Source of the DNA: Candidatus Aenigmatarchaeota archaeon
GTDB lineage: Archaea; Aenigmatarchaeota; Aenigmatarchaeia; GW2011-AR5
Reading direction: 5' to 3'
Assembly (NCBI GenBank): GCA_016193585.1
Contig: JACPRW010000001.1
Coordinates: 123,171 to 157,853, forward strand
DNA: 34,683 nucleotides
Position 1 is the first letter of the stretch. Each line of letters opens with the position of its first letter. The notes beneath the pieces are model-generated. The model was given only the letters and a program-made list of their open reading frames with translations. It had not been told where the DNA came from and made no database searches. Positions 8,804 through 34,675 of this stretch are shown here, piece by piece. The position numbers and the translations under genes were made by a program.

Positions 8804-8854
8804 TATAGTGAACCCACAAAAGATTCCATACATGAATTTGTGGGTTCACCTATA
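8804..8854. repeat. Long hairpin bounded by TATAG...CTATA, overlapping a promoter
   Basis: TATAG plus TGAACCCACAAA (8804-8820) pairs with TTTGTGGGTTCA (8837-8848) and CCTATA, about 17 pairs with one bulged C. The left arm contains the TATA box of the NSUN gene. The right arm runs directly into the next element, sharing its TATAG. The loop (GATTCCATACATGAA) resembles the apex of the first inner hairpin of that neighbour. Confidence 0.65.
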
Positions 8855-8953
8855 GTTCACAAGGAGGTAATACAAGGTGGATTCCATGAATCCACCTGTA
8901 CAGGAGAATCTTCGATTCTCCTCGTATACTTTTTATTTCCTTGTAGAACTATA
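8851..8953 (+). repeat. 103-bp three-stem palindromic element, copy A
   Basis: Outer stem: TATAGTTC+ACAAGGA (8851-8865) pairs with TCCTTGT (8938-8944), a bulged A, and GAACTATA (8946-8953). Two inner hairpins follow: TACA-(A)-GGTGGATTC with GAATCCACC-TGTA (8871-8900), and AGGAGAATC/GATTCTCCT with a TTC loop (8902-8922). A homologous copy of equal length lies inverted at 34573-34675. In the outer stem the three pairs that differ between copies change on both sides, so pairing is kept. No ORF is visible in 8760-9118 apart from these elements. Confidence 0.8.
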
Positions 8954-27490: not shown

Positions 27491-27770
27491 GTACAGGCGG
27501 GTAAAAGTTCCACCTGTATCGGAACTGCGAATAAAATGGCATACGACTTGCGAAGCGAGGGGTATTCTGACTCCAAAAAGTAATAGTAAAGAACATTGAT
27601 TTTGGAACATTTTACAATGTTCTTTCCCTATAGCAGATTGTGGTAAAAAGTTCCATTATTATTACAATCTGCTATAAGTGGAGGTATCGCGAAGACTGCT
27701 GTCTTCACGGTACAGAAGAAGCCGTGCTTCTCCCTGTATCGGAACTGCGAGCGGACAGCGAGTGGTTCTG
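27491..27770 (+). repeat. Pair of diverged direct repeats flanking the 97-bp element
   Basis: CCTGTATCGGAACTGCGA occurs exactly at 27513-27530 and 27733-27750. Each copy is preceded by GTACAG (27491, 27710), so GTACAG...CTGTAT forms a hairpin with a different interior in each, and is followed by a related stretch with AGCGAG and TTCTGA that can pair with TCGGAAC. Between them lies the palindromic element 27581-27677 plus a GAAGAC/GTCTTC hairpin (27691-27706). No ORF is credible in 27420-27771; it looks like layered small repeats. Confidence 0.55.
27581..27677 (+). repeat. 97-bp two-hairpin element, left copy
   Basis: It is identical over 97 bases to the reverse complement of 31310-31406. Hairpin 1: AAAGAACATTG (27588-27598)/CAATGTTCTTT (27615-27625). 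Hairpin 2: TATAGCAGATTGT (27629-27641)/ACAATCTGCTATA (27664-27676). The loops hold TGGAACATTTTA (27603-27614) and TAAAAAGTTCCA (27644-27655), complementary at 11 of 12 positions, so a loop-loop interaction is possible. The second stem has the TATAG/CTATA ends seen in the other elements. Confidence 0.85.
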
Positions 27771-31282: not shown

Positions 31283-31309
31283 GGTACTTCACGTTTCCCT
31301 ATGGCTCAG

Positions 31310-31406
31310 TTATAGCAGATTGTAATAATAATGGAACTTTTTACCACAATCTGCTATAGGGAAAGAACATTGTAAAATGTTCCAAAATCAATGTTCTTTA
31401 CTATTA
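31310..31406 (-). repeat. 97-bp two-hairpin element, right copy (inverted)
   Basis: It is the reverse complement of 27581-27677 without a single difference. It lies between the transporter start and the archease stop. Together the copies bound 3.6 kb holding four genes. Identity with no drift implies either very recent copying or gene conversion. Nothing coding is seen in 31283-31422. Confidence 0.85.
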
Positions 31407-34517: not shown

Positions 34518-34572
34518 GCTGTTCGGCAGTTCTACCAAAGACTTATAGATAATTGCGCAGCTTATGTCGTAT

Positions 34573-34675
34573 TATAGCAATACAAGGAAATAAACACGAT
34601 ACGAGGAGAATCGAAGATTCTCCTGTACAGGTGGATTCATGGAATCCACCTTGTATTACTTCCTTGTTTGCTATA
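34573..34675 (-). repeat. 103-bp three-stem palindromic element, copy B
   Basis: The inverted homolog of 8851-8953, about 90% identical by eye, with both inner hairpins exactly kept. The outer arms read TATAGCAA (34573-34580) and TTGCTATA (34668-34675), where copy A has TATAGTTC and GAACTATA: three base pairs changed on both sides. The element reaches to within eight bases of the window end. The preceding 34518-34572 holds nothing I can name. Confidence 0.85.

Follow-up and report, generated by a model that had tools for sequence, protein, structure and literature searches.

The window analysed here is a stretch of 34,683 nucleotides and corresponds to C9:123171-157853 of a 1.17-Mb archaeal assembly (90.75% complete; G000, or the own genome, below). 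It contains an inverted pair of 103-bp sequences, at positions 8851-8953 (forward strand) and 34573-34675 (reverse strand), which are 90% complementary and identical in both inner hairpins. Comparison of the outer arms (TATAGTTC/GAACTATA in one copy against TATAGCAA/TTGCTATA in the other) shows three pairs that have changed on both sides. What is this element, and why do the two sides of its stem change together? The initial annotation had described the pair, its hairpins and the paired changes correctly, and read them as selected pairing in either a functional three-stem RNA or a single-stranded DNA structure of REP/IS200 type. Our answer, to which we assign a probability of roughly 0.8, is that non-autonomous mobile DNAs are nested at this locus, with an IS630-type outer palindrome and a double hairpin inserted into it at TA.

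Architecture of the locus

A BLAST search on G000 yields approximately 19 essentially full and approximately 40 partial copies of the 103-bp element. Folded as single strands, the two copies of the window reach z-scores of -8.2 and -11.6, with none of 200 shuffles as good. The 103 bp comprise two nested elements and are themselves just one part of a longer mobile composite. The outer element (unit B) is a 48-bp palindrome, TATAGTTCACAAGG...CCTTGTAGAACTATA in the copy at 8851-8953, with the double hairpin in its centre; it is recognised from its fold, its further copies and the 48-bp empty copies in G000. TATA is common to unit B and to unit A (8804-8854, forward strand; TATAGTGAACCCACAAAAG...TTTGTGGGTTCACCTATA), a neighbouring IS630-type palindrome delimited by repeat block and fold; in genome G115 an IS630 transposon has TIRs of the same architecture. 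The 52-bp double hairpin (or doublet) occupies 8873-8924 on the forward strand between a duplicated TA (8871-8872 and 8925-8926), as identified by pattern match, empty and filled copies, and the orthologous empty site of a relative element. Fold and stem alignment place hairpin 1 (GGTGGATTC-CAT-GAATCCACC) at 8876-8896 and hairpin 2 (GGAGAATC-TTC-GATTCTCC) at 8903-8921, both on the forward strand, with the TGTACA of the centre at 8897-8902 between them.

The reverse-strand copy, found through the inverted pair and BLAST, has the TATAGCAA.../TTGCTATA haplotype and the same double hairpin (pattern match at 34602-34653, reverse strand). Adjacent to it lies the left half of a third palindrome, unit C (TATAGATAATTGCGCAGCTTATGTCGTAT; 34544-34572, forward strand), whose central TA received the composite, as judged from empty and filled unit C in G000. 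The contig ends 8 bp beyond this copy of unit B. Other contig ends of G000 also fall within a few bases of an element copy (C4 at 15781, C6 at 42332 and C7 at 1, next to C9 at 157853, the window end). It thus seems that the assembly was interrupted by the repeats, and it may lack further copies.

An outer layer of transposon ends

Unit B is present in G000 both without hairpins (16 copies of the 48-bp palindrome TATAGNNNACAAGGAAATAATATC...TTTCCTTGTANNNCTATA, one being a 56-bp deletion derivative) and with hairpins (15 copies, as a 102-nt match). The more general pattern TATAG-N36-48-CTATA gives 167 matches in this genome against 20 for the reversed control pattern. These matches fall in more than 10 stem families, and the number of such palindromic units is roughly 150. 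Units A and B are usually paired, with TATA in common.

Mobility can be read from unit C, for which 2 empty copies were read alongside filled ones (+94, +102 and +148 bp). Deleting the insert from the filled form gives the empty sequence exactly, one TA being duplicated; this shows that the pair of units A and B inserts as one 94-bp piece with TA duplication (148 bp when filled). The same TA of unit C also holds a different composite (+95 bp).

The autonomous IS630-family transposons of Aenigmatarchaeota have ends of the TATAG form. In genome G020 a DDE transposase gene (L072) is bounded at both ends by the repeat TATAGATAACTGC, with which units in the own genome begin (13 bp, no differences). 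The G115 transposon ends in TATAG-CTTTCCAAATAAATAATCCGTACT and TATAG-TACTCCAAATAAATAACCCGGACT, which follow the form TATAG-N-TCCAAATAAATAATCCGTACT / TATAG-N-TCCAAATAAATAACCCGGACT. As in IS630-type MITEs, the TA target is thus duplicated (empty against filled unit C) and terminal repeats are common to an autonomous IS630 element, by sequence for the TATAGATAACTGC units and by architecture for G115. The anatomy shows that the 48-bp palindrome of the outer layer consists of two terminal repeats of approximately 24 bp of the IS630/Tc1-mariner type.

An autonomous element with the exact ends of unit B (TATAG[T/C/A]..ACAAGG repeats) was not found. Neither a DDE_3 (IS630) transposase nor a protein like that of L072 was found in the G000 assembly, so that the lack of a transposase noted before for the window extends to the whole assembly (for Y1 see below). 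MITE status needs no cognate transposase in the host genome. The mover of the outer layer would be, or have been, a transposase of the IS630 type that works on the terminal repeats as double-stranded DNA, supplied by an element since lost from G000 or missing in its assembly.

Paired changes in the outer stem

In the forward copy the variable triplet is TTC (8856-8858, forward strand) with its partner GAA at 8946-8948, as defined by haplotype comparison of copies. Overall, three haplotypes are seen: TTC/GAA, CTC/GAG and CAA/TTG. Among 21 distinct 48-mers 10 of the 16 stem pairs are invariant and every double change lies in columns 6-8. In 28 of the 31 collected unit B copies the pairing is kept; in the remaining three it is broken, these being mispaired chimeras that combine known haplotypes. 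Three haplotypes in a single 3-bp block plus three chimeras amount to few events and argue only weakly for selection on pairing. Moreover, the block belongs to a region of the repeat that is not the same at both ends of the G115 transposon. Given both observations the outer stem alone does not prove such selection, and the conclusion that had been drawn from it does not follow. The homologues of unit B in G011 and G020 are of the CAA/TTG and TTC/GAA types too; both partners of one more pair have changed there, and one change is one-sided.

We read the compensatory changes of the outer stem as differences between subfamilies of transposon ends, which are of a known kind. Their symmetry could be explained by the transposon ends themselves, if the haplotypes are terminal-repeat variants that on both sides must suit one transposase, or otherwise by palindromes being copied arm to arm. 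The nest illustrates how transposon ends can come to carry compensatory changes and so be wrongly taken for an RNA.

An inner layer inserted at TA

When 54 nt are cut from filled copies of unit B, what is left matches the empty copies at every position. This holds for at least three variants of the sequence (among them L004 with L034, and L009 with L039/L040). The 54 nt correspond to the double hairpin (52 bp) together with one copy of the duplicated TA. This shows that the inner layer, an element of 49-52 bp with two hairpins, sits in the central TA of the palindrome with that TA duplicated; the outer palindrome is the older layer. In every filled unit B copy of G000 the doublet is the same one and points the same way. 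Spread by recombination between copies would therefore be as likely here as repeated insertion. Across three genera (including G011 and G020), different doublets occupy the central TA of the unit B homologues.

Insertion is seen outside unit B as well. In G014 (archaeon GW2011_AR5), one site between genes reads GAAAAGCCC-TA, a 49-bp double hairpin and TA-CTGG, against GAAAAGCCC-TA-CTGT at the orthologous empty site of its sister species G018 (flanks 79% identical to G014). The whole stretch is lacking in G017 and G008. The double hairpin therefore inserts in other places too, with TA duplicated. This is the one locus with an unnested orthologous empty site; a second one, filled in G018 and empty in G014, holds two insertions (a doublet and another element), with breaks also at TA. 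Furthermore, the four-hairpin chains of G020 consist of a doublet seated in the central TA of another doublet, within the TGTACA.

Since the outer palindrome exists without hairpins and the hairpins exist outside the palindrome, a single three-stem structure, as initially proposed, is rejected: something real had been seen, but two separate things had been joined.

Two further loci of G000 concern the fate of inserted copies. At L041:5644 a chimera of two different doublets is found and at L042:3658 a deletion derivative (the 56-bp unit B, which keeps CAAGGTG). They show recombination and decay among copies.

Distribution and covariation of the double hairpin

We scanned one genome per species (84,980 species) with the pattern TACAWGG-N-CCTGTACAGG-N-CCWYGTA, which fixes the frame only. 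This resulted in 41 stretches, all from Aenigmatarchaeota; in viral contigs no doublets were found. A looser pattern matches in 15 of 156 Aenigmatarchaeota genomes. Eleven of these have real doublets and belong to three families of one order, and the other four have single listed matches that form no hairpin. The own genome is the richest, with at least 30 doublets.

Pairing is well maintained between elements. Over 39 distinct elements the pattern-free segments of 13-21 nt pair at 448 of 471 positions. For 22 distinct 54-mers 97.2% of cells are paired, 49 cells have changed on both sides (against 14.1 after shuffling) and the covariation score reaches 0.390 against 0.107 for shuffled sequences (0/500 as high; slid controls at most 0.106). 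Across genera the stems are 93-97% paired. The covariation test on collected copies thus comes out clearly in favour of the inner hairpins, and the earlier claim that structure matters holds for these; for the outer stem it does not follow from the changes seen.

The arm sequence is constrained too: after GG mostly T or A follows, position 5 is a purine, and 102 of 104 arms have A at position 6. The doublet has the feet TAC and GTA and the centre TGTACA (all fixed by the search frame), its two ends are alike and TA-bounded, and its orientation is not fixed.

Within the own genome a different pattern emerges: among 19 copies of the own doublet all three stem mutations are one-sided. Stems that are paired between lineages and unpaired in resident copies suggest (n = 3 mutations) that pairing matters for spreading and not at each site.

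These data also bear on two other readings. Paired changes might be purely mutational, through arm-to-arm template switching at replication forks, pairing itself not being required. The confinement of the outer-stem changes to one block agrees with this, the chimeras show exchange between copies, and the TIR segment that differs between the ends of one autonomous IS630 transposon (G115) indicates that pairing is not essential there. Nonetheless, we find this reading distinctly unlikely, as none of the three stem mutations in recent copies of the own doublet was copied to the other arm whereas lineages across genera remain paired, and as the arms are under constraint of sequence as well.

Alternatively, the element could function as a structured RNA, or as one that regulates in cis, with pairing selected at each site, for which the strong predicted folds and the strong covariation of the inner hairpins might be cited. 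Yet no Rfam family matches at the gathering score, and the copies are intergenic, with flanking genes in every arrangement (11 tandem, 7 convergent, 4 divergent). They are also mobile (the G014/G018 site and unit C), resident copies have unpaired stem changes and chimeras, and the two layers occur independently. We therefore regard an RNA function, one of the two options of the initial annotation, as very improbable. A terminator or riboswitch was likewise considered and rejected, since copies occur in every orientation, including positions upstream of genes that diverge.

Candidate enzymes

A further alternative is that the inner doublet is an element of the REP-dimer type, on whose single-stranded hairpins a Y1 (HUH) tyrosine transposase acts. 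The apparent TA duplication would then combine a target motif with the cleavage site at the right end of the element itself. Doublets resemble REP/BIME elements in being dimers of short hairpins with complementary stem variants (as seen in the covariation), and REP dimers within TATAG palindromes have been reported for Anabaena variabilis (PMC3733652). The TA on both sides of the doublet at the G014 site could look the same under such a mechanism. In addition, Y1 genes are commoner in related genomes with doublets (6 of 10) than in those without (2 of 20; 30 genomes, one-sided Fisher p 0.007, kinship ignored), a weak co-occurrence; for DDE_3 a phyletic link with doublets is not seen (p 0.41).

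The remaining evidence points the other way. No GTAG or CGTC tag was found at the hairpin foot of the doublets, and the like, TA-bounded ends do not suit a REP dimer. The Y1 transposase that the initial annotation had suggested looking for was not found in G000, the genome with most doublets, nor in G014, G003 or G026. The Y1 genes of relatives (ten loci) are flanked by CCACCG..CGGTGG hairpins and not by doublet hairpins, and in G000 no tyrosine transposase flanked by hairpins of the doublet type was found. From these ten loci we reject Y1 of this kind as the cognate enzyme, and hold the REP-dimer reading as a whole to be unlikely. The link with small palindromic mobile DNA made at the outset was right; a REP/IS200 origin is unlikely. 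Half-site patterns were also used to look for an autonomous element with doublet ends. Most half-sites belong to doublets or chains, and no gene-bearing element was seen among those inspected.

Returning to the nest of mobile DNAs, the 49-52 bp double hairpin is apparently a separate, very small mobile element, undescribed so far; our literature search, in a limited body of literature, found no report of a double hairpin in Aenigmatarchaeota. Its mover would need the hairpin structure, the GGNNRANY arm and the flanking TAC/GTA, and well-paired doublets alone would spread while resident copies decay. Going one step further, the double hairpin might be among the smallest known mobile DNAs and be recognised through its hairpin structure. 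The enzyme would then belong neither to Y1/RAYT nor to the known IS630 transposases, yet produce a 2-bp TA duplication; we offer this as a tentative and rather unlikely proposal. If true, it would mean a new structure-guided, TA-targeting mode of transposition in a lineage of DPANN archaea. That a small-genome archaeon has approximately 150 minimal palindromes of transposon ends and no fewer than 30 double hairpins, with no visible transposase, prompts the question of their mover. The dozens of stem variants, with pairing kept between and lost within lineages, form a data set for the study of structure-dependent mobility.

Comparison with known systems

The closest precedent is found in A. variabilis, where GTAG-15 REP dimers lie inside TATAG...CTATA palindromes (PMC3733652). 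Here as well a hairpin dimer with complementary stem variants is seated in a long TATAG palindrome. In contrast, the doublet lacks the GTAG tag, duplicates TA upon insertion and is limited in this analysis to one archaeal order, its target palindrome is also present empty in large number, and no RAYT was found in G000.

Correia elements (NEMIS) of Neisseria have TATAG[CT]GGATTAACAAAAATCAGGAC terminal repeats and TA targets (PMC2229807, PMC2649163). The units described here share the TATAG ends, the TA targets and short and long forms that differ by an internal segment of approximately 50 bp; TATAGTGGACCAACAAAAGAATACCGACAT of the own genome was set beside the Correia terminal-repeat pattern (PMC2649163) by eye only. 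Differences are the unrelated host, the unit size (46-52 bp against 107/155 bp for Correia) and the internal segment, which here is a mobile double hairpin in its own right.

For ISY100, a member of IS630, approximately 24 bp per end suffices and TA is duplicated (PMC2170065). The outer units likewise have imperfect terminal repeats of approximately 24 bp and insert at TA with duplication, and their repeat architecture is common to the archaeal IS630 elements found in this analysis. Unlike IS630/Tc1-mariner elements they have no transposase gene (none was found in G000 either) and their two ends stand back to back. With the end requirement of ISY100, such a 48-bp unit would be the expected minimal derivative.

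Finally, the mitochondrial double hairpin elements of Allomyces are also short double hairpins scattered between genes; for these no flanking duplication is reported and an RNA route has been proposed (PMC2800124), whereas the doublets duplicate TA.

Other palindromes and hairpin chains

The window contains a second inverted pair (27581-27680 and 31307-31406; 100 bp, 99% identical), which comprises two more palindromic units, AAAGAACATTG..CAATGTTCTTT and TATAGCAGATTGT..ACAATCTGCTATA, repeated elsewhere in G000. In G020, IS630 transposase genes are interrupted by TATAG units with nested double hairpins (C7, L079:528-736; C72, L076:1692-1829). At L079 of the same genome (approximately 1400-1560) palindromes such as AACCAAATCC-AGCAA-GGATTTGGTT appear inside a reading frame like that of an aminoacyl-tRNA synthetase, which recalls the palindromic elements that Rickettsia carries in frame.

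The own genome and its relatives also have other chains, built of short perfect hairpins (L059:562-640, L043:1600-1860, L111:2200-2480, L066:2180-2250 and L152:1560-1800). Their linkers are palindromic and different (GCATGC, GAATTC, GATCTC, TGCA and GTGCAC), and possibly these chains represent a wider family of hairpin-chain elements that is not TA-bounded.
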